From Blastocystis sp. Blastoise (taxonomy: Eukaryota > Sar > Bigyra > Opalinata > Blastocystidae), in the NCBI GenBank assembly GCA_039096225.1, contig JBBPEB010000017.1:874501-938500 (forward strand): a stretch of 64,000 nucleotides of DNA, given 5' to 3'. Numbering within the stretch: position 1 is the stretch's first letter; the number at the start of each line of letters is the position of its first letter. Of this stretch, positions 4,002 to 64,000 are shown piece by piece. The translations under genes and the position numbers were made by a program. The notes beneath the pieces are model-generated. The model saw only the letters and a list, made by a program, of their open reading frames with translations, had not been told where the DNA came from and searched no databases.

Positions 4002-6475
4002 TTAGATACAAGATTGTATAGTATGAATATTCACATTGACATAAGAGGAGAGGGTGATATTACGACATACCCAAGGCTCCGAAGTCTCGAGATGTATATC
4101 CTCAATACGAATATCACTAGCATGCCAATCAGAATCCTCAAATCCCTATAGAGTGATGTATATTATATATATTATATATAGATTTATAGTGTATATATTA
4201 TATATATATAATATATATATATATATATACTTCAAGAAGTCCAGGTGTATTTGTGATTGTTCCTGTAGCATTTTGAAGAGATACATGATCTAATAGAGGA
4301 AGTATTGTACCTGTATATCCTATATATAGAATAGTATATATAGATTACTATATATTTATTATATATATATATACCAGTACGTCTTTGATTGTGTTTACTA
4401 TAAATAACAAATAAATATTTTGCGGTTTGTACTTGAATATCCTTATAAGATATGTCGTGCACGTGACCTCCTCGTCCAAGAGCCAGCTTAATGCCTAACG
4501 CACGAACAGCATCGACAACATCGATATGGTTACAAACAACGTCCGATATACCTCCACTGGTCTCACTACCAATAGCTATAGCACTATATATAATCATATG
4601 ATATATATATATATAATAATAAAATTATATATATAATAATAATAAAATTATGTTAAAAAAATAATAAAACTATAGATATAACAATAATAAATAAATATAT
4701 ATAATAATAATAAATCTATATATAATAATAAACCTATATATATAATAATAAACCTATATATATAATAATAAACCTATATATATATATATATACCTTCTAA
4801 AGGGTGCAATACATTGTAGTTGTTGTATATATATATGTGTAGAAGGAGTATTATAATCAAGACCGATGTCATCCCAACCACTTTTTATAGCTATACAATC
4901 ATCACCACTCTCTATATGAAGATCTATATATATATATATATATATATAGTATAAACATTGAAGAAACAATAAAGAAATAAAAATAGGCATATATATAACT
5001 GAACAAATAATATATATATTATTATATAATTAAACATAACCACAAAAATAGTTTTTATTATATACACTTAGTTTAATAATAATAATAGCATATATATATA
5101 CTATTTAAATAAACATATTGGCACGAGTCAGGGACAACACCATCTGTATTTGGCGCCAATCTCTCGTCTCTCCTTCCCTCCAAATGATCCTTATTCATAG
5201 AATCTAACATATTCTTTATTATCTTCTGCATACTATATAAATATTGAAGTTTCTTTGGTACACCTAAAGCCTTATTGAAATCATAAAAAGACCGCTGGTA
5301 AAAACGTCCTTTGGTAGGGAGATATTCTGTTGTTGGATTATATATAGAAACAGAAGTCATATATATATATGAAGAAGTATAAAGATGAACGGTCCAAAAT
5401 GGAGAACAAAACAGAGAAATATCCGATATCTATGTATTATATATGTAATAAAACGAATGAAATATTATATATATATACATGGATATTATTTGAATATGCA
5501 ACTTCAATTATATGAGGACGTGTATACCTATATATATATAAAGTAAGCTATTTATATAATGATTAAATTATATATAATAACTATATTATATATAATGACT
5601 ATATTATATATAATGACTATATTATATATAATAACTATATTAGTTATAAAAAAACTAAGTATATACATATATATAATAATCAGAATCAGAATAATCAAAA
5701 TAGAAAATATATATATATATATATATACATTAATTGTTTATTTTGGAATTGAAGCCACCAGAAAAGTCCTTGACCGTTAATAGATCCCCCACCAGTTATA
5801 TGTGCATCCGTAACATTATAAAGTTCAATTATATTATGATAACGAGGACTATTTATATAGCAAATACATTTTTAAAAGAATGAATAAAAAAGAATGAATA
5901 AAAAAGAATGAATAAAAAAGAATGAATAAAAAAGAATGAATAAAAAAGAATGAATAAAAAAGAATGAATAAAAAAGAATGAATAAAAAAGAATGAATAAA
6001 AAACATACCCTGGCATTTCACGACCTTGACCGTAACTAGGAAGCCAATGAATCAATGGATAATTGTTAATATCAGTTGTAGCAGATAATTCAGCATATGG
6101 TAAAATACATAGAGTCGTATAAGAAGTGAGATTAAACGGATTCACGACATATTGACCTTTTTCAAAGACAATAATTAAGTGTTCCCCAGCACTCCTATTC
6201 TGAGCAAATAATGTCATTTGATCTTCCAATAATGAAGTAACTAAAAACGAATTCTTTCTTTCATCACGAGATAACTTATCATCCATAAACGCATATCTTG
6301 ATCTACGTTGTGCCTTACATATTTGTGTATAATTCACAGTAGGACTTCGAACAAAACTCTGAGTAATTAATTCTTTTGGTGAATGAATATTGAAATAGGT
6401 AAATAAAACAACTTGTGCAACCAAGAAAAACCCACAGATACTAAAATAAAGTACCCTTCTTCCTTGAGGCGTCAT
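4002..6475 (-). CDS. Membrane-anchored glycoside hydrolase family 28 (polygalacturonase-like)
   Basis: Predicted inverting pectin hydrolase of the plant-like GH28 branch. Eight exons splice in phase: 6475-6009, 5848-5729, 5527-5479, 5429-5102, 4923-4794, 4583-4375, 4319-4231 and 4145-4002, giving 511 residues. The N-terminus has a cytosolic stub and one hydrophobic segment (about residues 8-27), so it looks like a type II membrane or signal-anchored protein. Family landmarks occur in order: LPSYGQGREMPG, ITGGGSINGQG, YTRPHIIEV, SPFWTVH, NTDGVVPDSC (catalytic Asp), ESGDDCIAIKSG (catalytic Asp pair) and GSETSGGISDV, with GRGGHVHDI just after. The His of the usual G-x-H-G-x-S motif is replaced by the SETSGG form seen in this branch. 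A 60-residue insertion separates FWTVH from NTDG. All introns are TA-rich; the first holds a 14-base tandem repeat. Confidence 0.9.
5876..6003. repeat. 14-bp tandem repeat inside GH28 intron 1
   Basis: About nine head-to-tail copies of a 14-base unit (gaatgaataaaaaa), with almost no divergence. It lies wholly inside the first intron of the GH28 gene. Confidence 0.9.
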
Positions 6476-15208: not shown

Positions 15209-16528
15209 TTACTTCTTAGCAGTAGTATCACGGACAATGGACTTGACAATACCGACAGCAACAGTTTGTCTCATATCTCTGACAGCGAATCTACCAAGAG
15301 GAGGATATTCAGTGTAGGATTCAAGAGACATAGGTTTAGAGGGAACCATTTCAGTCATCATAGCCTTACCAGCCTTGACAATATCAGGGTTTTCACGAAG
15401 AACCTTACCAGTTCTCTTATCCATTTCAGATAAGATTTTTTCGAACTTACAGGCGATGTGAGCGGTGTGGCAATCGATAACGGGACAATATCCGGCACGA
15501 ATACCAGAAGGATGAGACATGACAATAACTTGAGCAGTGAAAGAATTGACTTTAGCAGGAGGATCGTTCTTGACATCACCACAAACGTTACCTCTGTGGA
15601 CATCCTTGACGGAGATGTTCTTTACGTTGAAACCAACGTTATCACCAGGAAGAGCTTGAGCAAGTTGTTCATGATGCATTTCAATAGACTTGACTTCAGA
15701 AGTGACACCAACGGGGGCGAAGTAGACAGTCATACCGGGTTTCATGATACCAGTTTCGACTCTACCGACGGGTACTGTACCAATACCACCAATCTTATAG
15801 ACATCTTGAAGAGGAAGACGAAGAGGCTTATCAGAAGGTCTCTTAGGTTCCTTACAGTTATCAATAGCTTGGATAAGAGTAGGTCCCTTGTACCAAGGCA
15901 TGTTAGTGGAGGGTTCAAGCATGTTATCACCGTTGAAACCAGAAATAGGAATGAAAGGAATTCTTTCTTCAACCTTGGTGTAACCAACCTTGGTTAAGAA
16001 ATCAGTCATTTCAGCCTTAATTTCAGAATATCTCTTTTCAGAATATTGGACAGTCTTATCATCCATCTTGTTGATACAGACAATCATTTGCTTGACACCA
16101 AGGGTGTTAGCAAGAAGAGCATGTTCACGAGTTTGACCGTTCTTACCGTAACCAGCTTCGAATTCACCAGCACCAGCAGCAATAATAAGAATAGCAAGAT
16201 CGGCTTGAGAAGTACCGGTAATCATATTCTTGATGAAATCTCTGTGACCAGGGGCATCAATAATAGTACAGGTGTACTTTTCAGTTTGGAATTTCCAAAG
16301 GGAAATATCAATGGTAATACCACGTTCTCTTTCAGCCTTCAGTTTATCTAAAACCCAAGCGTACTTGAAGGAACCCTTACCGATATCGTTAGCTTCCTTT
16401 TCAAAACGTTCAATGGTTCTCTTATCAATACCACCACAGGCATAAATAAGATGACCAGTGGTAGTAGACTTACCACTATCGACGTGACCAATGACGACAA
16501 GATTAATATGAGGTTTTTCCTTACCCAT
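15209..16528 (-). CDS. EEF1A: Translation elongation factor 1-alpha
   Basis: GTPase that brings aminoacyl-tRNA to the ribosome. A single uninterrupted exon of 439 residues, close to the family's usual 430-460. GTPase motifs: GHVDSGKST (G1), RERGITID (G2), DAPGH (G3), NKMD (G4) and SGF (G5). Domains 2 and 3 are complete, with [23 protein letters not shown] and [20 protein letters not shown] (each within the conserved core). No opisthokont insertion follows MPWYKG, so the host is not an animal or fungus. Codon choice is markedly more C-ending than in neighbours, as expected of a very highly expressed gene. It is convergent with PPCDC, 139 bases apart. Confidence 0.98.
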
Positions 16529-42408: not shown

Positions 42409-44072
42409 TTAGATTCTGGTACAATAACTATTGGATACGGTATTGTATCTGAGCCAACGTTGACTATATAAATGTAAAAATAAGATAAATTGTTATAAAA
42501 ATAAATAAAAAAAAAAAGAGAATAGAATAAAAATAAAAAAATACGGATTATAGTTCTTTTGTTGACTATCAATAGATAAGCCACGAATCTTCATACCAGA
42601 TAATTGGAAGTTAGGAATTTCAAAGTTGCAAAGAATAGGTCCAATTTCTTTAGTAATAAATTGATTAGCAGGTTTTTCAAGATTGTAAATAATTTTAAGA
42701 TAATGTTCTTGAGCGCCAGTGACTTTCTTTAACATCCAGAATACACGCTTTTCTTTTTCACGATATTCCTTTAACTATATATAATATAGAATAATAAATA
42801 TAATGAATTAATTAGATTAAATAATAATAATAAATATATTTAATTGTTGTTGAGCATTAGGAGCAATAGTAATATTACAAGTAGTAGTATCTACAGGAGC
42901 ATGAAGAGAAACGAAAACATTGTTAGCAGATACATCAGCAGGAAGAGCAACAACAAGCTATGAATATAATAAATATAATAAATAAATATAATAAATAAAT
43001 ATAATAAATAAATATAATAAATAAATATAATATATAATAAATATATAATATAATAAATAAAATAAATAAATATATAATAAACATATAATAAATATATAAT
43101 GAATACTTTAACAATGACTTCAATTTTAGTAGGACTCTTTTCTTCGACCATAGCATATACTGTGAACGGAGGTTTATAATAGGAGGTAGTACGATAGTTG
43201 AGTACTGTGAATTCACCTTCTTGAGGTACTAAAGTAAGAAGACGCTTTTCATCAAATTGTTCTAAATTGACAGAATCATCAAAGTTCATATCATCAAGAA
43301 TAACCGTGGGATTCTTCTCATCAGCAGGAGGAAGAGGAGAATCTTTACCAACAACAAGATGAGCAGGAAGAAGAATTTTAACAGTAGGATTACCAGTTAA
43401 GAAAGATCTCATAACAATAGAACCATCAATAGAAGAATGAAGAACATTACCCTTAGAATTAAACATAATAGATAATCTTTCAGTACAATCAACAAAGATT
43501 TCATTATTTGATTTCTTGTTATTACTAACAATAGATTTATTAGCAGCAGTAACAGAAGTACTAGCAGAATCTTCACCTTGAACGGGTTTACTAAAGACAT
43601 AAGTCTTAAGATTCGTAGTCGAAGTATCCTGAGGATAACCAAAATCAATTAATTCTTCTAAAAGTTCATAAATAAGAATGAAATTCTTTCTAATAGAATC
43701 TTCAGAGAGAACACCACAATAATCCTTAATAATCTTGATAATACGGAAGAGAACTTCAGTACCATAACAAGGAGAAAGATTCATCTTAGTGGTAATAACG
43801 AAATAAATTCCATTTTTTTTAGAGAATAAATAAGTGACAGCATCTTTGTTCTAAAATGAATAAAAATAATAACTGTAAATATCAATAAATAAAAAAACAC
43901 AAAAAAAAGAATTTATAGTTAAAAGAAATACGAAAATTGGAGGAGCATCACCAGGCCAGAAACGGACAGTTCTAAGGAACTTTTCACAAGCAGTGATAGG
44001 TACGTCAAAACGGAAATCTTTATAGATGAGACGATCACCTCTGTCTGATAAGATGAAGAATTGTGAAATCAT
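42409..44072 (-). CDS. AP4M1: AP-4 adaptor complex subunit mu
   Basis: Medium subunit of the AP-4 coat that sorts cargo at the trans-Golgi. Five exons: 44072-43932, 43850-43107, 42957-42844, 42774-42545 and 42463-42409, giving 427 residues (human 453). The start MISQFFILSDRGD is diagnostic, followed by FGYPQDTST, VDCTERLSIMFNSKG, SYLTGNP-like SFLTGNPTVKILL, VPQEGEFTVLNYR, and ITKEIGPILCNFEIP with the C-terminal NPQRWLRYNTVSNSYCTRI. The third intron has no GT donor: the gapless match to AP4M1 across NAQQQ-LKEYREKEKRVFW forces removal of a segment beginning TTAAATATATT, and the next exon also begins TTAAA. All other joints are canonical and in phase. Confidence 0.93.
42958..43100. repeat. AATATAATAAATA tandem repeat in AP4M1 intron
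   Basis: Imperfect copies of a 13-base AT-only unit (ataataaataaat) fill the second intron. Confidence 0.85.
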
Positions 44073-46113: not shown

Positions 46114-46841
46114 CATACAACAGGGAAAATAGTTAATAATAAAGTAGCTACAAGGTTACCAAAGACTTATAATATTAAGAAAATTATCTTACAATAAATA
46201 ATAATGAAAATAATTAAAAGGATATATTACTTAACATATAAATAGACCAGAAAAGACCAGAATTTGTACCTCTATTTTTAGTAGTAGAACATTCACTTAA
46301 GTATACACCTTGAGCAGCCCATACAATACAAGCACAAAAACCATGGAAACCACTAAAACATAAAGCTACAGGAATAATCAAATAAGAGAAATGAGCTATA
46401 AAGAGACCATATTCAACAGATGATGCAGCAATAGCATATCTGGATTGACCAAATTTCATAATCACAGAAGGAGCAATAATATTCAAAATAGAAAAAGAAA
46501 TATTGACAATACCAAGGCAAGTAGCACCAACATCACCTATATGTTTCTGCTTAAAAAAAAACATATTAATATATAAAAATACCCATTAACTTCACAGAAT
46601 AATTCTGAGCAGGATTAAAAGCTAGAAAAATAATTAAGATAATAAAAAAATAATTAATTAGTCATTTCATATAACAAAAAATTAGACTTAACAAAATATA
46701 TATACCCATAAATAAAAGCATAAATCCTAAACCAAGATGAATGACATTCATTTTATTGACTGTTTCCGCAGATAAATTCTTAAAACAAAACCATTGATAT
46801 GTCTTCTTATTAGAAGTATCCTTTACAAGAGGCTGCTCCAT
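44729..46841 (-). CDS. UNC93-like major facilitator protein
   Basis: Multi-pass membrane protein of the UNC93 branch of the MFS; relatives act as channel regulators or in receptor trafficking, and the substrate is unknown. The ATG at 46841 opens MEQPLVKDTS. TM1 ends with FMLLFMAFNPAQNYS, matching the family's F-x-AFN-x-AQN motif. Other parts: GDVGATCLGIVNISFSIL, GFCACIVWAAQGVYLSEC (family motif GxGaaxxWxxQGxYlt), a charged central loop (residues rich in Glu between TM6 and TM7), WPAAMFNRQVTDATVVG, IIEVVFSLILGKVSD, and a last TM followed by a basic tail with RKERRLSRASS. About 11-12 hydrophobic segments are counted. Splicing after AQNYS uses donor GTGAAG; the later GTATTT donor would be out of phase. 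Other exon ends were placed by reading frame and not all were checked. Confidence 0.85.
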
Positions 46842-47898
46842 ATTTTAAAGTATCTTCTTAATAATAATTAAAAAAAATAATATATTTTTAAAAGAAACTT
46901 GGTTTATTTTTTTTGTTTGATGTCGCAGGAGAAACTATATGGGGAATTTTGTATAGAGGAGAAACAGATATATTTCTTTTCTAAACCAGTCATTTTTATT
47001 ATTTCTTAAAAAACCAATGTTTTTTGTTCTAAAAAGCATTCCTTTTGTTTTTAATTCTTAACAGCTCTGAAAGAAATGACTTTGGAAATTAAAAACGAAT
47101 GGTTCATTCCTCTTGTTTTTGGGGAATCTTAGAATATTCCGTAATTTGAAGTAAAGTCTCATGTTTATTTTTTCTATGGTTATTTTCTTTGTTTACAAAA
47201 GTATTATTTTGGGAATAGAAAATAATTAAAAACTTTAATAGCTTTCACTCACACGTACGTATAGCATATATGCAAAAAAAAATGAATGATGATCTTCTTG
47301 TGATAATTATCATAATCATCTTGACACATATTAATGAAAATAACTTGATAAGAATAATACTCAGTAAGGACTGACATGAAAAGAATAATCAAAAAAGAGA
47401 TTTGAAACAATGATTGCCTTTTACCAGTTTTTTTTAACAATGAGAAATATACTACAAATCTTTGACTTTTTACGAACAGGAAGATAGTCTACATATTATC
47501 AATATGATACGATAATAGAATACTTAAAAAGAAGGTAATTAATTTGTGAATCTACAGTTACAAGAGTAAGTCACATGGCTTTTTACAAGAAAAAAAAAAC
47601 TAAATATTATGAATCAAGCTTTTTAATCAATATATGTGAATAACTAGTAATTCAAACTCTATTAAAAAAACAGACCAAATACTATGAAACTTGAAGATTA
47701 TTTATATCTTCACGGGAATTTTGCATTATTTAGTAAATAACTCTATTGTTTTTTGTATATAGTAAAAACTACACTGTAATACTGGAAAAGTTAGTAATGA
47801 ATTCTCATTACAAGAAAAACTCTAATTTCTTTTTTCGTTTCACATTAATAATTAATTAATTAATTAATTGTATATATTTAATTTTATTGTTTGTGTGA
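46842..47898. other. Intergenic, divergent promoters of UNC93-like and giant ATPase genes
   Basis: About 1.06 kb without a supported gene. A (taat)n-type run lies at about 47849-47872, just upstream of the giant gene. TTCACGGGAA lies at 47710. Confidence 0.55.
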
Positions 47899-48553
47899 AT
47901 GAATCCTCAAGTTGCATACCAATTTACGTGTAACTGTGAAACAACCCAATATGAATATGCATTAACCAACGTTGTTTACAATGAAACAGCTACAGTTTTC
48001 CTCTCAAGATACATGGTAATTTACTTATCGATAGATCTATGAATTTATTTTATAGAAATGGGTCCCTGAACATTTTCAAATAGGTTATAATGTATTTACA
48101 GCTGGCTCAGCGTTGATCAATACGAAATCTACCATGCTGGATCTAATTCAATTAAGAGAACCAATTTATTTATTTTTAGATGTTACTCAAGAAGTTTTTT
48201 TTAGTATGAATCCTCAAATTCAAGAACTTTATCCAATGAGATCCATGTCAAAACAAAGTCAATCTGATAAACAATGGGTATATTATTATTATTTTTCATT
48301 TGAATTTAATTTTTATTGTTTTCAAAAAAAAAAAAGTTTTTTTTTTTACTTATATTTAATGTTTATTTTAGATCTCTACCCTTCCCTGGCCTCATGGATC
48401 AGGATATATTATCCAGTCATTATGGATTAATTACTTAGTTCAAAATAATCAATATGTTCCACAGAACCCTATACCTATAATATTTGTTTTGCTTTTTAAG
48501 GTATATTCACGATTATTTTTTAATTTATAATATATTTTTCTGTATTTACTTAG

Positions 48554-48584
<31 letters not shown>

Positions 48585-50895
48585 GATAAAGGAACCTTCT
48601 CCTCCTCCTCCACCTCCTCTTATTCGTATATATATATAATTTAAATTAATTCCAAATTTATATACCTTATATTTATATCTTTTTTTAGTTTTTTTTTTTG
48701 CTAAATTATAAATTATATATATATATTTATTATTATATATGAAAGATATATATGTTAAAGAATACTATATATGTATATAGTTACTCTTCCTGAATCTCCT
48801 TCTCCATCTCCTTCTCCTTCTCCATCTCCTTCTCCTTCTATACCTATTCAAAATACTATTCAACCCATTGTTCAACAACCTACTGATAATATCACTCAAC
48901 AATCTACTGATAATGTCACTCAAGAATCTAATAATGATATTGTTCAACAACCTAATAATGATATAGTTCAACAACCTAATAATGATATTGTTCAACAATC
49001 TACCAATAATATTACTCGACAACCTAATAATGATATTGTTCAACAACCTAATAATGATATAGTTCAACAACCTAATAATGATATTGTTCAACAACCTACT
49101 GATAATATTACTCAACAATCTAATAATGATATTGTTCAACAACCTAATAATGATATTACTCAACAACCTATTCAAGAACCTATTCAAGAACCTATTCAAG
49201 AACCTATTCAAGAACCTTCTGACTCTATAACTAAAACTATTAACGAACCAATAAATGATGATCTAAAAGCTTCTTCTTCTACTATTACTGATTCATCAGT
49301 ACCTTCTAAAGATAATTCTCTTTCTACTGTAAATAACGATAATTCCAAGAATTATTCTAAAGAGAATTCAGGGGAATCTTCTTCATCACAACCAAAAGAT
49401 GTGTCTCCAGATAAACCTAATACTAATTGTATATATATATTAATTATATTATACTATTATATGTTTATAATATATATAGTATATATATATTAATTGTTAT
49501 ACTATACATTGTTATATATATATTTATTAAAATATATTATATATATAGCTCCATCAGGTAATTCTGCGGATTCGATTGATATAAATATAGATGTAGATGA
49601 TATTGATGATTTAATAGATAATGACACGCCGCAACATGCTGCTGATTCCACTCCAAAACCCATGGAAAATATGTCTATTTTAGAAATCCTTCAAAATGAA
49701 TTAATTAAATTATGTACTATAACCGATACACCCTCTTTAGATAATCAATATGAATTGTTATTAAAGAAATATACTCAAGAAAACATTCAAGAAGCTTTAA
49801 ATAGTATATATCCGATGAACGAAGTAACATCTTCTATTTGGTATAATAATCTTGTTGTTTATGCGACACGACTTCTTGTTTTTAAACGTAAAGTAGATAC
49901 CAACTGTATTTATATTATTTATATTTATTTGTATTATATATTTTTGATGCTTTTTTCTATTTATTTGTTTTGTCAAACTAATATAATATATATCTATAGC
50001 GAATGAATTCAGGGCTGAAGTTGAGTATATATATATATTACTATTTATTATTCCTTCTTACTAATACCACATATATATAGGAAAAAGACAAACTATTTAA
50101 AACAAACTTTTAATAATTATATTTATGTATATATATTTATATTTATGTATATTAGTGAATATATATATATATATATATATAGAGTATTTCTACTGTAGAT
50201 ATTTACGCTCTTAATTTAAATACACGTGACACTCTTGTATACCATAATTCTGCAAAGATGACTACGTATAAACCCTTTATGGACTTCTTAATTGTATATA
50301 TATATATATATATAATATTTGATTTTTTTTATTTCTAGAGAAAATATGGTGAGAGTATCTATGTTATCTATCATAATAAGATACTTACTCATGAAGATCT
50401 TAATTACGTAAAACAAAAACATATTCAGAGACTAGATATTGCTATTCTTAACGTATATATATATAAATATATATATTATATATACATAATTATAGTACAT
50501 ATTTATTGAATTACATTGTGTATATAGTATAACTTCAATTTTCCATATGTTTTTAGAAATCCACAATTAGATATGGGATTCAGTATATATATTTTATTTA
50601 GATTATTTTTCTCTAAAGAATTTATTTATCTTTTTATTTTCCTTGTTTTTACTGTAGATATATTTGCTATTAGATTTATATAAAAGAATTTTTATTAAAA
50701 TATATATTGTTATATATACATTAGATGTTTTATTTTTTCATAGCTTTATATATATATATATAACATTAATTCTATAGATATTCCTGAAGATTTTAGTTTT
50801 CTGAATGATATTAAATTATTATCTAACGAACAATATTCTGAATGGATTAATAATATTATACATCCTCGTCTATTATGTATATATATATATATATA

Positions 50896-50931
<36 letters not shown>

Positions 50932-53900
50932 CATTATATAGTTGATCTTCCTCGTGCTCCTAAAATGTTTAATGATATTTCATTATTTCAAGAGGACTGC
51001 CTTTCTACAGTCACAGAAATTATTGTAGATAGTATATAAATATAATAAATATAAATATAATAAACATAATAAACATAATAAACATAATAAACATAATAAA
51101 CATAATAAATATATTAAATATAACAAATGTAACAAAAAATAAAGAAAATAAATATAAATATAATATATATATATATATAGATCGTTCTACGAATAGTCTT
51201 GAATATACTTGTTCCTTTAAAAATAATTCTTTGGGTATTATTCCTTTTAGAATGGGTCTACAAGGTATATATATCTTTATATATCTTTATATATCTATAT
51301 ATATAGTTTCTTATTATAAGAACGAATTATCTGAATTTTTCCGTCTTCCTGAACTTTATACTAAACTTATATCATTACAGAGCTTTACAATTTATTGTGA
51401 CGAACTGAATATGAAAAGTCAAGAATATCCGCGATTCTTTGCTTATTTATATAAAGGATATATTAATTATAATGCTAGTCGTGAAGAATTACAACGTTTC
51501 TCAGTATATTTATTCTCTATAAATATATATATAATATTATATATTATCTATATAGTTTAATGGAAATAAATTAATATATGATGAATCTTATCTTGAATCT
51601 TTTGAAGATCAAGAATATAAACTTCGTATATATAAATATATATATAATTAATTAATGTTAAATAATTTTTATTATTCAAATTATTACTCATTATATATCT
51701 ATATATATATATAGATAATACTATACCTCATCGTCCTGCAGATCCTTCTTCTTATTTCTCTACTAAAGTGAATCCTCCTTCTCCTTATGGATATACCCCT
51801 TATGCACCTTGCTATCTTGCTTTTAGTATGAATACTCGATCTCCTGCACTTATTACTCCTAATAACCTTATATTACATACATTACATGAGAAACCATCAA
51901 CTAGAAATAATGATAAACGTACTTCTATTCTATCTCTTCCTTGTGCTTTATATAATGGATTAGATACATTATCTCTTGGTGATTATGTTAATTTTAGTTA
52001 TCAATCAACTGAAAATGAAGTTTATTTCTATCTTCCTTTACTTAAAAATATAGAATTAGATATGAATCGTCTTGGTAATAAAACTATTAATTTCTTCTGT
52101 ATTCGTCCTAACGATCCTGTTAATTATAATCGTGATCAAGATGGAAAGAAAGAACCTCATTATAAAGGATTAAGTGTATATATAGAAGGAGTTGGTAGAT
52201 TAAGAATTACTGCTGATTATGTGATTGTTCATTCCATAGAAAATACATTAAATTATATTATAAAAGGTCAATCTTATACTATATATCCTTATCGATCTAT
52301 TAATCTTATGAGTCGAAAGAATACATTTATTTCAACTCCTGAAGCTGAACAACGTGTTTATCATATTGAACAAGCTATTCAACATAATATTCCATTATTA
52401 ATTGAAGGAGAAACATCTAGTGGTAAAACTTATAGTGTAGAATATGTAAGTAAAAGAAGTGGTATTCGTGTGATTCGTTATAATTTCTCTCCTACTTCTT
52501 CTCCTGAAGATTTAATTGGTGATATTACTTTACAAACAAATAATAAACATAGTACTTTTGTCTTTAAATCTGGTGCATTCACAGAAGCATTTATTCATGG
52601 GGGTATATTATTATTAGATGAAATGTCTTTAGCTCCTCAATCTATTGTTCAATCAATTTTATCTTTCTTAGATTCTAAACAAATCTTTATTGATAAGATG
52701 GGACAATATGAAATAAGAGAAATGAATCCCAATTTCCGTCTTATAGCTACACAAAATCCTGCTGGATCTATATATAAACGAAATACATTAAATACAGATA
52801 TTCGTGATTACTTCAGAGTATTAAATGAAGAATTATTTCCTCCTATTTCTCAAAAAGAAATTCAACAATTTATTGAGAAAAAGAATATTCGAAATCATGA
52901 GTTTGAAAGTCAATTATTACAAACACATAATGAAGCTGTTCTTGATGCTACAAAACGAATTGCTAATAAATTTTATACTATTCGAGATGCTAATAGAGCT
53001 ATTTCTATGATGAAATTAAGAGAAAATTCTCAAGATATATGGCCAATAGTATATAATACTCATTATACACAAGGATTTAATCGTAAACAATTAATGGAAC
53101 AACTTCTTCAACAAGATCAATCTACAAGATCAAAGAATTCAGATGGATTCAGTGATGCTGAAAGAGGCTTAGATTATCCTGGTGAACCTTTAGATCCTAT
53201 TGTATTCCAATATATAGGTAAACAATTAGATATTGCTTTAAATAGTGGTAGTCATGTAATAGTATGTGCTTCTGATGAATATGTTGCTCGTAAATATGTA
53301 TATGCATTCTTATATCATCGTCAACAAATATATGGTCAAATCAATAAAAAGAAGAATGGTATTAAATTACGTTATTCTAGTGTATATAAGACTTTATATT
53401 GTTCTAAAGGTATTACAGCTGAGAATTTAATAGGTTCTTCTAAATTAGAAGAAGATATTAAGAGTCATGAATATATACCTCAATGGGTAGATTCAGAATT
53501 ATTAAAAGCTGCTGATGAAGGTAATATATGTGTTATACAAAATATAGGATTAATGAATTCTAATTCTCTTGAAAGATTAAATAATTTATTAGAAGTAGAA
53601 TATCATACATTAGATGCTAGTAATAATAATATTGAGCCTATTAGTGTTCGTTTTGATGAACGACAATGTAATGGAGATCTTATTGTAGATCCATTATTCC
53701 GTATTATTGCTACTTGTTCTGTTAATGATCTTAATCATTTCTCTCCTGCTCTTAACAATCGATATATACATTTACGTATTAGTGATGATATGCTTAATGA
53801 AAAATGTTATAAATTATATAAAGAGCCAAAAGATTATTTTAATAAGATTTCTACAAGTGTAATTCAGAATATAAATGATGAAAATGAAAAGAATTTATAT

Positions 53901-56900
53901 ATAAATATGAAACAATTCATCGATTCTCAATCTAACTTTTTTAATAAGAAGAAATATTATATTAGTTTAGATTTCATATATGAAATGTGTGAATTATCAT
54001 TTGAACAGAAAGTACAATTAATTAAAGATTATTGTACTTCAGAAGGTAAACATTTATCAATATTAGATCAATATATTCCTTCTACTCGTTGTGATAAATG
54101 TAATGAATTATTTAGTTCTATTTGTGAACATAGAACAACTAGTTTAATTGGATTAGAATCTACAGGTAAAACACATCTTCTTTTGAATGTACTAAAGAAT
54201 AGTGGATTAATAAAACGTTATAAAACAGTTTTCTTAACTCCAGATACAGATATAAGTCAATTAATAGGTAGTTATACATTTTCTTCAAGTTCTTCAAAAG
54301 AATCAGTTTCTCAAGGTGCAGGATTTAAACGAGGACCTTTATTAGAAGCTTTAGAAAAAGGAACTATATTAATATTAGAGAATGCTCATTATTTATCTGA
54401 AGAATTAATTGAATCTATTCAACAATTTATTGATCCTTTAGCAACATCTGTTGTTTATTTAGGTAAAGAATATCATATTTCTAGTAATTTCAGATTAATA
54501 TATGTATTTAAATCTTATCAACAAAATAAGATTCATCATGATTTACCTTCTTATATTCAAAGAGTATATGTAGATTTATATACACAATCAGAAATAGAAT
54601 TAATTCTTCATCATCCTCTTTTATGTCGATTATATCGTTATGAATCTATTTCCATTCAACAGTTATTAATATATTATGAAATCTATCAACGTTATTGTCG
54701 TAATGTCTCTTTTGATCAATCTAATGAATATATGGCTGGTATCGTATGTTTATATCAACCTTCTTCTTTTCTACTTCAGAATTCTCCATTTTTAATTGCT
54801 ATTGCTACGCATTGTTTAAAAACACATAATGATGATTATAAACCTTCAGATATTGAAATTGAAAAAATGAAAGATAAAATTAAGAAATTTGTAAATTATG
54901 AAATTGTTCAAGGAACAAAACAAAATACAATAACAAATTCTATTTTACAAGTATACTATCCTGATAGTATTAATTTATCTACTTGTCATTGGTGTATTTC
55001 TTCTTTATTCCGTCTCCTTATTCTTCAAAGTTTAAGTACAATTCCTCCTATTCTTATTGGTGGATCTGAATCAAAAGATCAATTTATAGATATACTACAG
55101 AATAATATGGATACTATTGAATTATCAAGATCTTTAGAATGTGATTATTTAACTGGATTATCTACTGTTTGTAGTAAGACAGATATTCAATCATTACATG
55201 AAAGAATAAAAGCAGAAATTACAAAATTAAATATTAATATTCATTCAGGAGATGATAAATATACAGCATTAAAAGACTGGATTAACGATATTGAACGATG
55301 TTTATCAGAAAAATCAGATACAAGTATGATTTTTAAACCTGGTCAAATTACTTTAGGTATATTTAAAGAGAAAGCTTTATTATTAAAGCATTTTGAATTA
55401 TTGAATGATAATGTTATTCCTCGATTAAGTTCTTTATTTGATAGTTATTTAAGTGGCTATTCTTTCTTGTTACATGAATCTGATAGTGGATATCAAGTTA
55501 ATCTTCAGAATTGTCGATTTGTTGCTACTGTTGAAGAAGAAAACTTTACTAAAACTGCTCTTCGTAATTATTTTATTTATTTACCTTGTTCTGATTATAA
55601 TTTATCCGAAAAGATGAAGATTATTCCGTGGATCTCTCAAGTTGATTCTATATTTGCAAAAGAATCTTTAATATTCTTAAAGAAAATTGATGCTCTTGCT
55701 CCATTCTTTAAGAATTCTTATCAAGATGCTTATTTCTATTTAAAGTATATTTCAGGGACAAAAGAAGAACGTATTCAATTAATGAAATCATGTCAATATA
55801 GTGATTCTATTAAAAAATTATTTACTTATTCAGAAACTATTGATTCTTATAATCTACCAAGTGAATATTTAAAAGAAGTCTTTATAGATGGTTCTGGTCT
55901 TGATATTAATAGAATTCGTAAAATAGAAGAACTTCCTGGTTTTCAGCCATTAACAGAATCTCTTACTACTTTACATATATTAATATCTATTTTATTAACA
56001 AAGAATACAGGAGATCCTAAACCGAATAGATCAGATATTGATTATTATCCTATTATATTAGAAGGAGCACCAGGTATTGGTAAATCCGATTTAGCTATTC
56101 GTATATTTGAAGGATTACAAATTCCTTATATTCGTCAAAATTTTGCTCAAAGTATAGATATTGGAAATGTATTTGGTTCTGTATCTCCTACTTCTAATGG
56201 TGGTATTCAATTTAAAGATAGTGAATTAAGTTTCTTATTAAAAGGTAAAGATAAGTATAGAGTTATGGATGATAAAGGTAGTTATATTTTTGATCCTAAT
56301 GATTCAAATGTTATTGATAAATATAAGAATAATGATAAGAAATATGCATTATATAAAGGTGAATATACAATAGGATTATTATTAGATGAATTAAATCTTG
56401 CTTCTCCTGAATTATTAGATACTATATCTACTTTAATTACACAAGCTAGTAAAAGAGGTAGCTTTTATATCCCAGGTAATATAACAATCAAGAGATTACC
56501 ACGATTATTGATAGTTATTTGTGAGAATCCTGCTGTTATGTCGAATAGTCGTGGTGTTTTACCTAAATCTATAATTGATAAGAGTTTTTATTTCCGTAAT
56601 ATAGAATTTGAAGTATTTGAATTGACAAGACTAAGTGGTATTATTCTTAATGAATGTGTTTTAAGTGATAAAAGATCTGATAATTCTTTTAGTGGTACAG
56701 AATTCTATAAGAAGAATTTAAAAACACGTATAAAGGCACTGATTGCTAATGCTATTTATAGTAGTTCTCAGACACGTGTCAATTTCTCATTACGTGATGT
56801 TTTAAAAGGAAAATACTTAATAGATCAATCTAGGCACATGAATTATTCTATTCCTGTAGAAGCTGCTTTATGGCTTACGATTGTATGTAAATATTTACCT

Positions 56901-59900
56901 GAAGATCGTGAATCTCTAGAGAAATCCCTTGGTTTAAATTTATCAGATATTATTCAGCATTCTTATTATGCAGATTCATATACTAATAAAAGTTATTTAC
57001 AATTACAAAGTACATTTGTGACTTCTATTGAATGTATTGATAGATCTCCATCTCTTTTATCTTTAACAAATTCAGAAATGAGATTATTATATCAATTATC
57101 TATTGCTTATTCTAGTAAACGAGGTATATTAATTTATGGTCCATCTCCTTCAGGAAAAACACATGTACTTACAAATATGGCTAAAATAATGGGTAAACAA
57201 TTACTTGTTGTTCCTCTTAATAATGAAAGTAATTCATCAGTTCTTATTGGTAGAATGGAACCTCGTAACCCAGAAGAAGATATTAATAATATAAATAATA
57301 ATAATAAGAATAGTATTTTAGTCTTCCGAAAAGGACCTTTATTAACAGCTATGGAAAAAGGTTATTGGATTAATATTGATGGTATTCAATTAGCTTCAGG
57401 AGATGTTTTAGAACGTTTGAATTCACTTTTAGAAGAACAACCTACATTAAATGTTATTGAAAATACTACTTGCCCACTATTATATAAAGATCAATCGAAT
57501 CATGAAATTTCTTCAACTCAATATTCTCCATTAAATTCTTCTTCTTTTTATAATGGATTGAATAATTCTGTGAATTCTGATAGTAATAAAGGTCGTGTTA
57601 TACCTATACATCCTGATTTCCGTATTATATTAACCTTATCATCAAATTCTATTGTATCTGTACCTGCACCTCTTCAAAGTAGATGTATATTATTATATGC
57701 AGAATCATTATCTACATATAAAAATATATGTGAATTATGTGATTTAAAAAATAATTTTAATAAACCAATTGGTAATTATATTCCTAAAAGTATAGATAAT
57801 AATAATAATAGTGAAATAAAAGGATTATCAACAAGAAAATTAATTCGTATATTAAATTCAGATGAAACTATTGAAGCTATTAACGCAATTGAATTTTCAA
57901 ATTCTTTACAATATAATCCAAGAGATAGACAACTTAAGAATATAGAAATGGATAATGAATTTAAAAATGATTTTATTAATATGATTCAAAATAGATATAC
58001 TCCTGAGAATGAAAAGAAATTTGGTCCATTGATTGTAGAATGTCTTAAACAAAATATTCAAATCTTTTCAAATGAAGATATACAAATAATAAAGAATTCT
58101 TTACGATTATGGATACGTAGTATATTATGTTATCCACTTAATTATATATGTGAACGTTTATCTGCAAAACGTGGTTTGACTTCTTGTATATTATCTGAAG
58201 ATCAAAAAGAATATAAATATTTATTAAGGTGGTCAAAATTTAGTGATAAATATTATGAGCCAATTATGTCGATACATATTGATGAAAGAATAAATAAATA
58301 TTTTTCTTCTTCTAATCCATTTGATTATTTTAGAATATCTAATGAGATGGATCGTTTTTATTTTGCTTATGTTACTGGTAAATATGATAGTTTTCTTTCT
58401 ACAATATCTTTTCAAGAATTTCATAATGTTTTAGAGATTTTAAATTCAAAGCTTGAAGAAGTTGCTGATGAGAATATAGATTTATTTTTAAAAGAATTAT
58501 TTGATATAAAGAAGAAATGTGAAGAATTAGATGGTTATTATCAAGATGTTACTAAAGATAATTCAAAAGCAAAAGAATTATATACACTTTCGCATGAAGC
58601 TTCTAATTCTCTTACAATTCAACAAAAGAAGATTACACAATACATGCCTTTATTTGAAGTATTAGATAGAGAAATAAAAAGTAGTCAAAGTAAATGTGAA
58701 GAGATTCGTAGTATAAGAGAATCAAATATGGATACAGGTGATTCTTTACTTGATGATGTTATTAATAGTGTACCAAAAAGTATGCAAGAATCAATTAAAC
58801 AATCTATTTCAAAAGATGATCCTGATTTAGAAAAGAAAAGAGATTTATTAATGAATACTGAGAAATCAATAGATATACCTGTAGACTATAAGAGAATTAC
58901 AATGAATTATTATAAGGAATATATACGATTAAGTCATTTTATGGTAGCTATGAATAGAGCAAAATTGAATCCTGTTCCTATTCTTATGAATACACCTGAA
59001 ATATTACCTTATATAAATATGAAGATTGAAGATATTGCTAAGAATATATTATTTATTACTGATTGCATTAAAGATATTAAAATAATTATTAATTTCTTTA
59101 TGAATATATATTGTGGTTTAGCACAATATATTATTTTATCTCCACAATTATTAGAAATAATTTGTGTAAAGGATTTATATATTCATAAAGAAGTCAAGGT
59201 TGAACAATTACGTATTGCATTATTGAATTGTTGCCATTATGGTTTATATGGTATTATGAATACAGAAATATCAGATATATCAACAATTGAAGAACTATTT
59301 AAAACATTATTTAGTACAATGAGTATACCCATTCAACTTTATGATTATTATCCTGTTCTTATATTATCTTATCCTTGTGAATTATTAAGTTGTATTGAAC
59401 CTCCTAATGAACAATTATTGAATTGTTATTATGTTAATTCTATTAAATCATTACCAAAAGATTATAGTATTCAATGTGAATTAGATATAAATGATAAATG
59501 TACTATTAATAATATTAATTATATTCGATTCTTGCATCATCATCATAATATGATAATTCCATCAAATGATTTACGTATTTATTATGGAATATTAAAGAAT
59601 ATGAGTAATCAAGAGATAGAACCGTTTGATCAATATATTATTGATTCTACATTAAATATTCGTGATAAATATCAATTATTATTCCCTGCATTCTATACAC
59701 CTGTGTCTACATTATTAATTGAAATTCTTGTTCGTAGTTCCTATTCAGATTTTGCTAAAGATGCTATTGAAAGTATGTCTAATTCAGGAAAAACTTCAAT
59801 TAATGATATATTTAATAAAATAGAAGAATTAGAACAAAAAACTGGCAAATTAGATACTTTATATGATGATAATAATAAAATAAATGAAAAATTACAAAAT

Positions 59901-62900
59901 ATGAATGTTGAATGTGCTGATTTGAAATCTCAATATGATCAAAATGTAAATCAATTTGATAGTAATATTCCTTTAGTTTTAATAGATATTAATAAGAAAT
60001 ATGATATTAATAAAGAATTTATTTTGAAGAAACAGAGTATACGATCATGGTATGTAACACAATTATATCATTATAGTTGGAATGCATTTATTAATTCTAT
60101 TAATACTATACGTTATTTCATACCAAAAGAATTACAAGAAAAAGCTCAAGAATTAATTGATAGTCGTTCATCTCGTTATTTCTTAAAGGAAAAGCCTATT
60201 TCTAATCAATTTATTAAAGTAGCTTTTATTACATATCCTTCTACTTGTAGAGATATTCCTATTGAGTTTCAATTAGTTAATAATCAAGGAGAACCTGCAC
60301 CAATTACTTTTAAATATCATTCGCTTAAAATTGAATCAAAACCATCATCAAAGAAGACTATGTATTCTTCATTTATTCCTCTTCCTTTTTCTACGTATGA
60401 TGTTATTATTAATAGAACTAGAATTGAGAAATGTGTAACTATTCATTATCGTTATGTTAGTCTCCCTGATTTATTTAGACATGATTCTTTCGAAGATGAA
60501 CAATTATTATTATGTAATTATCTCTTAGATTCTTTATGTATTATAATGAAAGAAAAAAAGATATTATATAATATTTCTAGATCATTTAGAATTGAACAAT
60601 TTTCTGTTATTGAAAAAACATTATTGTATCGTGAACAATCTAATTCTGATTTTAGTAAACGAAAAGAAAATACTATTCTGCTTTATAAATATGATACAAC
60701 TAATGATATTAATGATCGTTATGCTATTTCTTTTGCTTCTTCTTGTTGTACATTGCCTTTTTACTTTAAATCTGATTGTAAATCTGTTGAAATACCTTGT
60801 TATTCAATGGATCCTGAACCTCAAGCTAATGATTATTCTTATTTGAATTCTGATGAAGGTAAGCATTATAATAAAGAAGATTTATATTATACAGATGCAG
60901 ATGAAATAAATGCATTAAAAATATATACTGTACCTAATTTAAATGATGATAGGTATGTAAAGAATCTTCGAGACATAAGTATTCGTATTAATAATATTGT
61001 AAAGGAATATGATGAGAAATATAAAACTAAGCTTGGAATGGAAAAAGAACTTAAAACAATAGAAGAAACTATTAATGCTACAAATAAACATTTATTAAGT
61101 TCTCGTGTATTTGTAGATCGATATAATATTGATGAAGGATCTGAGAACTACTTAAAATATACAAAGAATCCAAAATTTGAGAATTGTATTAATATATTAT
61201 CTTTAAGATCTATTCCTCAAATAATTGTAGCTAGTGAGAATAATAATAATGTTTTACGTTTACCTACTTATGTTTATTCATATAATAAGCCAACATTATT
61301 AATACCTATACTAAATCCTATGAAATATGAATATATATGTAAATGTGATGATGATTTAATTCTTATTGAAAATGTTTCTTCTGGAATAAAAATACAATTT
61401 TCTGATGAATATGATATAGATAAAAAAGATAAACTTGAGTTCACGTTAGTACTACGTGTTCAATATATAGATCAAGATAATAGAAGCAAACAACATAAAG
61501 ATACGGTTATTAAGTGTATTGCTCCAGTAGAACGTCAAATTTCATATTTATATACAAAAGAGAATTGTTCTTGTGAATGTTATAAAGATGGATCAAAGTT
61601 CTTTAATGTAGCTGGTTCAAGTATATCGTTTATTATGAATGGTAAACCATATTATTATCGTTCAGGAAATAAAGAGAATAGATATGTATTTAATACTAAA
61701 TATCTAATTCGTTATAATATGAATATAAATTGTCGATATAATGAGTTTTACATTGATTCTAATGGTATTATAAATATATTTGAAGAACCAAAAGCAGAAG
61801 ATAATAGAATAACCCAAAGTATTCAATTAGAATCTACTTGTAGTTCATTATTAAAGAATTTCAATGATAAGAATATTGCTCGATATGTATATGCTATTCA
61901 ACAATCTCCTTATTGTTTATTTGACTCTACTCATAGTGATGATATAAATAAGATATATACTTTATTAAAGTATATAGTAAGTCATAAAGATACTTATTTC
62001 TCAACTATTTATTATTATGCTGAAAAGAGTTTATGTGTATTTAATAATACATATAAATTAGTATGGTTTAATTGTAAAGATTCTATTTATCAAATGAATG
62101 AATCTTCTTCGATAGAGAATATTTTAAATAGATATACAAAAGAATTTAAATATGAAAAGAAGGTAACAGATTCTAAATCAGATTCACAACCAAAGTCTTC
62201 AAATCCTGTGATTAGTGGGGGTAATATTAATCCAAATGATATTGAAGATATCTTACATCAAGCTAAGAATATAGCATCAGCTGCTACACATGTGATCTCT
62301 ATAGATGCTGATTTAAATCCTGAAGAACAACAAAAACAAGAAGAAGATCGTAAACAATTTGAAATTAAAAGAAATGATATTAAAAAGATTTTACAAGAGT
62401 TTAGATCTATGTCTTTATCTAATTTATTTAAAGATGTAATGTCTCGAAAGAATATATTAGATTTAGTTAAAATAACATCATCAAATGAAGATCGTTTGAA
62501 ACAAATTAATATAGAAGCTATTAATAGAAATCAAAATCTAATAGATTTTATATTGGTTAATTATAAAGGTATATTATCATATTATGTGAATAGTATACGT
62601 AGGAGTGAAAAGAGAGAGAATAAATATATTCCTCGAGTGAACTTGATATTTGATGTGAATGTAAGTCATAAAGTGAACAAATCTAGATTAAGAAGTACAA
62701 TAGGTTGTTTATTATTACTTACTTGTGATTGTTTAGGTATACCAACTTCTCTATATTGTACAGGAGGTCGTTCACAAGCATTTAAATTAATACCAACAAA
62801 AGATAATTTATATGAAAAGATTTCTATTATTTATGATTTAGAAACAGTAGAAAAGATACCTTCAACACCATTAGATTTATTTGCTTTTGAACAGCCTTCT

Positions 62901-64000
62901 AAAGATCTTAAAACTCAATCATTCTTTATATTATCTGATGGTTATTCTGAACAATTATTAAGTGAACGACCAGAAATTACTAGTTTCTTTACAACAAATC
63001 TTCAGCATTTATTTTTATTCCATATACAATCTGATGGTTTAATACAAGATGAAAGTCTTCCTGAAGTACTTTTGAATGAAATGAATGATCAATTAAAGAA
63101 AAATTTTAAAGAGAATATGATGAATGTATCAAACATAGCTTCTTTATGTTCTCAACCTCTTGCTAACTCATTTAGAAATATGTTTTATTCATCTGAATTA
63201 CTTGAATCAAATGTAGATAAATTAGAAGTAGTATATCCAGGTAAAAATAGTGTAAAACCTAAAGTAATAGATATATTATCTATATTATCTATTCCTCTAG
63301 AAGATACAAAAGATAATACAATATCTCGTTTATCAGAACTTGATAAGCATAATGGTATACCTTATGTAGTTAGTTTATTCCAAAAAACAGGAGAAACTAT
63401 TATTCTTCCTTCTGTTGCTCAAACAGATTTAGAACATGTTCCTAATGGAGGAAATACATTAATATTGAATCAAATGAGTAGTATTATTAGTAAGGAATTA
63501 CTATATGATTCTACGAATAATTGTGTTCTTCCTCCAAATAAAGCTACTTCTTGGATTGCTTCTGTTACAGGTACATCAATTCATTTAAGAAATTATATTA
63601 ATTTCTTAATTACTAAAACAGGTAATGGTAAATTATTTAAGAAGAAGTCAGGAGGTAAGATTCGTGCTTATTCTATTAGTATAATAATAGATTGTAAATG
63701 TTCTTCTTTTAATATATTGAATATTCGTCATTCAATTCATACTATATTATTATTTATAAGATGTTTAAGTGAATTATCTGTATCAGCTGTGGATATATGG
63801 ATAGCAAAAGATAAATGTTATTGTATTGGAACAGGTTTACAATCTTATGAAATTTGGACATATACAATTCTTTCTTCTTTATTTCAACATTTCTCTTCTC
63901 CTACTCCTTCTACATGTATAGATCAAGTAATAAAGCAAGCTACTTCTGTATGTAATAGTCGTCCTTATTCAAGTATGGAATTTGTATTTACTGATGGTAT
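47899..64000 (+). CDS. Giant multi-AAA+ ATPase with VWA-like C-terminus (3' end beyond window)
   Basis: Seventeen exons splice in phase from the ATG at 47899: ...48015, 48056-48277, 48372-48500, 48586-48625, 48781-49428, 49549-49905, 50000-50024, 50081-50126, 50183-50293, 50339-50452, 50528-50582, 50778-50876, 50942-51031, 51181-51264, 51307-51503, 51556-51625, then 51715 open to the edge. At least 4,896 residues. The first 1,000 match nothing I know and include PxPSPS and QQPNNDIV repeats. Six AAA+ modules follow: AAA1 GETSSGKT (1033) with LLLDE; AAA2 without Walker A; AAA3 GLESTGKT (1614) with ILEN; AAA4 lost; AAA5 GAPGIGKS (2252) with LLLDE; AAA6 GPSPSGKT (2610) with NIDG. Several coiled coils lie between about 3040 and 4360. 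Two VWA-like folds start near LIFDVNVS (4444) and IIIDCKCS (4792), both with imperfect MIDAS motifs. The plan resembles midasin (ribosome assembly), but the acidic region is missing. Function unknown. Confidence 0.8.
48786..49222. repeat. Coding repeats in exon 5 of the giant gene
   Basis: Three nested protein repeats: SPSP (48790-48840), 24-33 base units encoding QQPNNDIV or QQPTDNIT (about 48865-49170), and four 12-base units encoding QEPI (about 49170-49217). Together they form a low-complexity linker. Confidence 0.9.

Follow-up and report, generated by a model that had tools for sequence, protein, structure and literature searches.

A giant AAA+ gene of Blastocystis sp. Blastoise points to a second midasin-type family separate from MDN1/Rea1

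We analysed a window of 64,000 nucleotides (bases 874501-938500 of contig C25) from the genome of Blastocystis sp. Blastoise (33.3 Mb, 34 contigs), in which positions 47899-64000 hold most, but not all, of a gene for a giant AAA+ protein. Textbook giant single-chain AAA+ rings are midasin and dynein. Sequence comparisons strongly support the assignment of this gene to a second midasin-type family, separate from MDN1/Rea1 and patchy in its distribution among eukaryotes. Because homology extends over the whole AAA ring, a Rea1-specific hook and one von Willebrand factor A (VWA) domain, the giants are classified by sequence as a paralogous sister family of midasin and not as proteins unrelated to it. 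The original prediction, made from the letters of the window, offered two readings, a midasin that had diverged or a family of its own not yet described; separation from MDN1 is supported, while homology to midasin spans more of the protein than was then thought. The best explanation overall, and one we consider likely, is that a giant of this second family acts as a Rea1-like remodelling engine on another substrate.

Most of the protein is encoded by a single exon. Exon residue n corresponds to window position 51666+3(n-1), and a ciliate genetic code, considered for this exon, is unneeded, as the frame is open under table 11. The exon and the AAA+ modules that it encodes, the latter with approximate limits, are as follows.

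51666..64000, plus strand: giant exon of 4,818 codons, frame open to 66122, TAA at 66120-66122, last 2,122 nt beyond the window
52338..52985, plus strand: AAA1, ATPase motifs complete, with GETSSGKT as Walker A (52407-52430) and LLLDEMSLA as Walker B
53208..53885, plus strand: AAA2, Walker A and B both lost (CASDEYVARK / CVIQN)
54093..54755, plus strand: AAA3, Walker A retained as GLESTGKT, LILEN at Walker B
55008..55685, plus strand: AAA4, both motifs lost
56007..56705, plus strand: AAA5, ATPase motifs complete, with GAPGIGKS as Walker A and LLLDELNLA as Walker B
57081..57725, plus strand: AAA6, Walker A retained as GPSPSGKT, NIDG at Walker B

The predicted arrangement of six tandem AAA+ modules in the midasin layout was recovered by profile comparison with hhalign, in which exon residues 180-2017 are collinear with midasin residues 254-2292 across all six modules (1,620 columns, E 3e-63). 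A Pfam scan placed AAA_5 in five stretches (E 4.9e-49), and midasins are the nearest solved relatives in a PDB sequence search (E about 1e-58). When each module was matched separately, the odd or even position of the best midasin module agreed in 6/6 cases, but module numbers coincided for AAA5 and AAA6 alone; modules 1 to 4 of the giant prefer midasin modules 3, 4, 1 and 6, respectively. The claim that only AAA1 and AAA5 keep both Walker A and a DE Walker B holds in the window copy and in an alignment of 11 Blastocystis sequences. In this alignment DE is present in AAA1 of all 11 sequences and in AAA5 of 10, the exception being NE in C3c, and it is found at the aligned place in none of AAA2, AAA3, AAA4 and AAA6. 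Walker A is canonical in AAA1 of 8/11 sequences, and in AAA3, AAA5 and AAA6 of all 11.

The ring is followed by a linker and a tail of VWA-type folds, some carrying recognizable versions of the metal ion-dependent adhesion site (MIDAS).

57813..62585, plus strand: linker of ~1,590 residues, including the segments with the highest ratio of nonsynonymous to synonymous substitution rates (omega, 0.55)
62619..63215, plus strand: VWA-A, with DVNVS ... STPLD ... SDG, MIDAS variant D-x-N-x-[S/T]
63516..63680, plus strand: hook, counterpart of Rea1 MIDAS element II (PPNKATSWIASVTGTSIHLRNYINFLITKTGNGKLFKKKSGGKIRAY), placed by hhalign to the midasin C-terminus
63681..64000 and on to about exon residue 4,200 beyond the window, plus strand: start of VWA-B, MIDAS decayed to DCKCS
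Exon residues ~4250-4560, before VWA-C, plus strand: extra Rossmann-like domain, from predicted secondary structure in a low-confidence model
Exon residues ~4572-4818, beyond the window, plus strand: VWA-C, third VWA-type fold, motif degenerate in the window copy (CTSGN)

The whole gene thus has three VWA-type folds and not the two first proposed, the third lying beyond the window with the Rossmann-like domain before it. The accompanying description of decayed MIDAS motifs applies to VWA-B and, in the window copy, to VWA-C. It does not apply to VWA-A, which carries a conserved MIDAS variant rather than a clearly decayed site: among the 11 Blastocystis sequences D-x-N-x-[S/T] and the last D are present in all, and the later T in nine (replaced by A in C3b and S in C13d). 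In VWA-B the first D of the metal-site motif is kept in 11/11, and the second and third motif residues vary. It is nevertheless the hook with VWA-B that resembles midasin, since alignment of these parts from 12 family members with the midasin MIDAS region gave a probability of 96.5 (E 8.4e-10), compared with 38.7 for VWA-A and 0.5 for VWA-C. In a Foldseek search the best match of the C-terminal model was Rea1 (6ylf, E 1.7e-4). The VIA list was filled by the third VWA, and is uninformative on other C-terminal parts. CTP synthase, considered as the identity of the Rossmann-like domain, was rejected as too weak a match (Foldseek rank 18, probability 0.57). The PY of the proline-tyrosine nuclear localization signal in element II is present in 0/12 family rows, and only 3/5 of the midasin rows shown have it. 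The acidic region already reported as missing is indeed absent, the maximum content of D+E per 200 residues being 0.17-0.26 in 14 family members versus 0.43-0.49 in 6 midasins.

A standard MDN1 elsewhere in the genome had been named as evidence for a separate family, and reciprocal best matches to MDN1 in a genome with no other midasin as evidence against it. The search located a canonical MDN1 on contig C34 at ~165.9-187.3 kb, which supports a separate family; the opposing condition fails. From AAA1 up to and including the MIDAS domain, this gene aligns collinearly with fungal midasins, with 56% identity where the MIDAS region begins. It is the sole locus in the genome that matches Pfam AAA_lid_7 and AAA_lid_5, and the giant loci match neither in searches of their own genome; Pfam MDN1_4th gave no matches anywhere, controls included, and is uninformative. 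In addition, a six-frame search found two NLE-type ubiquitin-like (UBL) loci in the genome, which we take to be the number expected for Rsa4 and Ytm1.

Relatives outside Blastocystis were found by searches with the C-terminal tail. The tail of the C16 copy retrieved five proteins, including P0123 (E 4.7e-4), an ENA protein with three VWA domains. The tail of P0123 gave 23 matches, itself included, of which Bryopsis sp. KO-2023 accounts for two, Neocallimastix lanati for one and other records for many; the last three matches were excluded from the family, as they carry AAA_lid_5 and one is named midasin. The family comprises members from anaerobic fungi (Neocallimastix lanati), the green alga Bryopsis (BSKO_10106, BSKO_10123), the metamonad Kipferlia bialata and a rotifer of the genus Rotaria, together with ENA, JGI and lgn records; motif scans covered 14 of these and related proteins. 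Bryopsis, P0123 and P0127 have three VWA domains with DxSxS-type motifs, which in Bryopsis and P0127 read DNSGSM in VWA-A, D[IVL]S.S-type in hook plus VWA-B, and D.TGSM or D.SGSM in VWA-C. The order VWA-A, hook with VWA-B, VWA-C holds in the window gene as in the second giant family. Complete sites in AAA1 and AAA5, assigned by order and spacing, occur in P0128, P0138 and P0139; the sequence of P0136 begins inside AAA1, and Kipferlia P0099, known from the first search, is laid out similarly, its AAA1 Walker A being a variant. A kinase-like N-terminus suspected by eye in Neocallimastix found no Pfam support.

The AAA regions of 30 proteins (1,686 columns) were placed in an unrooted tree. The sample contained 11 Blastocystis giants, nine other giants, Rotaria P0021 (placed by its AAA region only) and nine midasins, including that of Blastoise on C34; P0137 was left out. 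Giants and midasins are split with support of 100/100. Neocallimastix may be closest to the Blastocystis branch, at bootstrap values of 60 and 76. The Rossmann-like domain is common to Blastocystis, Neocallimastix and Kipferlia, and not present in Bryopsis and P0127. The subfamily bearing it (P0141, P0099 and the Blastocystis giants) has so far been observed in Blastocystis, anaerobic fungi and one metamonad, organisms that we take to be all anaerobes, and its lateral transfer is possible.

Rotaria P0021 groups 100/100 with P0138 (7,778 residues) and P0139 (7,753 residues). In an excerpt of PMC7943196 a rotifer protein appears only as a transposon insertion site, and it probably belongs to the same family. 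Apart from this passing remark, a prior description of the family was not found in the mainly open-access literature. A table line 'Midasin-like protein' in a Blastocystis list of single-nucleotide polymorphisms could be the giant or midasin (PMC9896827, table excerpt), and a term search of PMC5608401 found no midasin, von Willebrand or dynein. Where named by their source, Blastocystis giants are labelled only hypothetical, uncharacterized or 'AAA+ ATPase domain-containing'. Furthermore, viral contigs showed no pattern match with one family member, and in a prokaryote genome collection 0/69 matches to two peptide patterns were confirmed as relatives of the C-terminal part.

According to excerpts of PMC11603028 and PMC6624252, ATP hydrolysis in Rea1 swings the linker to the ring-docked MIDAS domain and strips UBL-bearing factors from pre-60S particles. 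To the observed domains, motifs, family membership and copy number we add a model on this pattern, in which we infer that the ring closes, that two sites hydrolyse ATP, that the lever makes a stroke, that the VWA domains bind, and that the target is non-ribosomal. The six AAA+ modules would close into a ring hydrolysing ATP chiefly at the sites with AAA1 and AAA5 motifs, with AAA3 and AAA6 probably binding nucleotide without hydrolysis. The ring would swing the long linker bearing the tail of VWA domains. This tail would grip a ligand, VWA-B being docked on the ring by the hook before it, much as happens in Rea1, and the stroke would pull the ligand from a larger assembly. A metal-dependent grip is likeliest for VWA-A and, in some copies, for VWA-C, whereas the more likely role of VWA-B is to dock the tail on the ring. 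The N-terminal region, sharply different between copies, probably determines what each copy acts on or where it is located. UBL factors of pre-60S particles are probably not the substrate, because a canonical midasin is present, there are two NLE-type UBL loci only, the metal site of VWA-B is lost and the acidic tail is gone.

Several observations weigh against this interpretation. The mechanism is built on sequence and Rea1 anatomy, and the linker of midasin/Rea1 finds no sequence match in that of the giant, so the lever is proposed from position alone. With Blastocystis rows alone the match of hook and VWA-B is weak (E 4.7e-4, probability 32.6). The C-terminal structure model is also weak (predicted local distance difference test, pLDDT, 57.7); unrelated VWA proteins nearly tie with 6ylf (next E 1.9e-4), and the superposition is poor (template modelling score, TM, 0.13). 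The AAA1 Walker A is altered in 3/11 copies (SSAKT in C3c, C21 and C3a), and Neocallimastix members also carry DE in AAA3, so the pattern restricted to AAA1 and AAA5 is not universal. Finally, omega estimated by the Nei-Gojobori method (NG86) is 0.52-0.92 in 21 pairs of seven copies, far above the value obtained with a codon-frequency model.

The latter model (Goldman-Yang, GY+F3X4), preferred because the window has about 20-35% G+C, gave an omega of 0.31 over the exon in six close copies. The lowest segment value was 0.14 in VWA-B and the highest 0.55 in the linker. By this estimate, which covers giant copies alone, the six close copies are under purifying selection. In the whole genome there are at least 21 matching loci, 17 detected by AAA1 matches (the C34 midasin excluded) and four by tail matches (C26:442 kb, C16:18 kb, C22:15 kb and C21:1116 kb), neighbouring AAA1 and tail matches on one strand being counted as one gene. 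Fifteen loci have uninterrupted frames of 4,429-5,515 codons, and at least one locus, C26:442 kb, looks like a fragment. Eleven sequences were read, that of the window gene and ten more; in three of the ten the 3' end is cut off. Three tail-only matches (27-28% identity) are close to contig ends (C16:17.6 kb, C22:14.9 kb, and C21:1116 kb of 1154 kb). Two further stretches were not counted as family: C25 at 121 kb, a single stretch with stops inside (E 0.0013), and C17:510528-510908, an AAA_5 match in a 2,113-codon frame unlisted by the AAA1 search.

The copies are mosaic, and segment trees differ along the gene. The 3' flanks are common to C16b/C26 and to C30/C8a, and the 5' flanks to C8a/C8b; from these conflicting flank pairs and the changing trees it follows that the copies recombine. 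A mobile element was considered and rejected: similarity of the copies stops near the gene ends, but no shared terminal repeat was seen by eye, and a repeat search in 46500-48000 gave only short, imperfect, mostly AT-rich matches. Sharing of flanks in conflicting pairs fits recombination rather than a defined element.

Tentatively, the family could be read more broadly as a second eukaryote-wide class of Rea1-like mechanoenzymes outside ribosome assembly. In Blastocystis it would be a multigene family shaped by recombination, in which variable N-termini direct a conserved pulling engine to new targets, possibly in recognition or defence. Going further, and in our view rather unlikely, the giants might constitute a diversifying conflict or self/non-self system, with variable N-termini that sense a trigger and an AAA/VWA engine that releases or assembles an effector. 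Such a proposal parallels the one made for bacterial MoxR-vWA ternary systems, and midasin is assigned to the same MoxR clade in an excerpt of PMC7159879. The number of loci, the mosaic flanks and the changing segment trees agree with it, as does the comparison of P0002 (the protein of the C16 copy) with P0003, which are 27-38% identical in residues 1-400 and 85-99% in residues 501-1600. At the DNA level, C26, C8a and C8b likewise resemble the window gene only from 51107-51138 onwards. However, some later blocks of P0002 and P0003 are also just 45-55% identical, so the N-terminus is not the sole variable part; moreover, omega over the exon is 0.31 and no full 300-codon segment exceeds 0.55, no effector domain was recognised, and the amplification was seen in one genome.

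A lineage-specific, fast-diverged duplicate of the Blastocystis midasin, grouped with other giants by long-branch artefact and perhaps still employed in ribosome assembly, is improbable. The tree does have long branches, and the C34 midasin is a possible source, but the approximately unbiased (AU) test rejects a constraint that unites the C34 midasin and the giants (p 1.4e-6, at a cost of 231 log-likelihood units) as well as joining of the Blastocystis giants to midasins apart from other giants (p 0.001). An analysis under the posterior mean site frequency (PMSF) model retains the giant/midasin split with support of 100, and the independent characters of extra VWA domains, AAA1/AAA5 pattern and lack of an acidic tail agree with it. 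A dynein-type motor for cytoplasmic transport or the cytoskeleton is very unlikely, in line with the original description of the protein as neither standard midasin (a role held here by C34) nor dynein, since against weak Pfam matches to dynein motor AAA models stand 0 dynein chains among 12 PDB sequences at E <= 0.1, those listed being midasins and NorQ/CbbQ/CobS types, and the C-terminal VWA folds, dynein being an apparent exception without a vWA partner (PMC7159879, excerpt). With regard to giant ubiquitin ligases of the RNF213 type, no RING-type zinc finger was found in a Pfam scan of P0001 or of exon residues 3780-4818, nor in N-terminal exons, scanned partly, from the C16 and C8 copies.

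Upstream of the giant exon, the second-family gene of the window begins with short N-terminal exons, placed by tblastn with the N-terminus of P0002 and delimited approximately by the ends of high-scoring segment pairs.

47899..51665, plus strand: start codon and short N-terminal exons with AT-rich introns between
47899-48015, 48056-48280, 48372-48503, 49629-49904, 49999-50025 and 50079-50126, plus strand: first six matched pieces
50192-50587, 50771-50875, 50947-51033, 51171-51503 and 51556-51627, plus strand: last five matched pieces
48780..49430, plus strand: repeat tract of PSPSPS... and NDIVQQP units, putatively coding candidate exon with no P0002 match

The ATG and first exon at 47899 are backed by 39/39 identical residues in P0002, and intron sequence is still included in pieces 50192-50587 and 51171-51503. 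This region is diverged, and no domain was recognised in the window copy. The 1,000-residue unrelated N-terminus described earlier is about 800 residues long in the C16 copy, where the AAA1 Walker A is at residue 806 of P0002, and would reach about 1,000 in the window gene if the NDIVQQP repeat exon codes. An AlphaFold2 model of the P0002 N-terminus (799 residues, 5 sequences) had a pLDDT of 33.5 and no usable fold. As a separate observation, residues 1-165 of the paralogue P0007, the C21 gene, contain two ubiquitin-like repeats (Pfam ubiquitin 5.9e-8), the sole such N-terminal piece among those scanned. Because the VWA of Rea1 binds ubiquitin-like domains of its substrates, it is conceivable that these repeats contact the midasin-type VWA of their own chain. 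When these repeats were compared by profile with the window-type N-terminus, the probability was 0.1, and no ubiquitin-like domain is claimed for the window gene.

Next to the giant gene and convergent with it lies an open frame at least 3,482 codons long (C25:947054-957499; window coordinates 72554-82999, minus strand). The 3,333 codons scanned contain six hormone receptor domain (HRM) stretches and a WSC domain, which identify it by sequence as a giant surface- or secretion-type protein. Ordinary genes within the window include those for an EF-1alpha-type GTPase (15212-16528, minus strand) and an adaptor-complex medium subunit (42894-43784, minus strand).

If the preferred interpretation of a remodelling engine is true, a patchily distributed family with a catalytic pattern of its own and several VWA domains as grips would show the ring-and-lever design of Rea1 put to a second use. 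The family would then give a natural comparison for how hydrolysis in the ring moves the linker and MIDAS of Rea1. Blastocystis is a very common gut microbe, and the patchy family includes anaerobic protists and fungi.

Among known proteins, the giants of Bryopsis, Neocallimastix, Kipferlia and Rotaria form a clade with those of Blastocystis and share the hook with VWA-B as well as further VWA domains; they differ in that many retain DxSxS-type MIDAS motifs, and in N-termini without evident similarity by eye. Bacterial MoxR-vWA chaperone and conflict systems likewise combine AAA+ proteins of the same clade with VWA domains holding a peptide ligand (PMC7159879, excerpt), although in them MoxR and vWA are separate proteins. 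Like the giants, midasin has six AAA+ modules in tandem with matching odd/even order, a linker close to 1,600 residues long, and the Rea1-specific element II hook ahead of a C-terminal VWA. In contrast, giants form a clade apart from midasins and lack matches to AAA_lid_5 and AAA_lid_7, and their complete motifs are in AAA1 and AAA5, while those of midasin are in AAA2-AAA5 (PMC11603028, excerpt). Midasin has an Asp/Glu-rich region of about 600 residues before its MIDAS domain, which giants do not; the giant has instead three VWA folds and a Rossmann-like domain, and its hook-linked VWA-B has lost the DxSxS...T...DG metal site, which reads DCKCS in the window gene.

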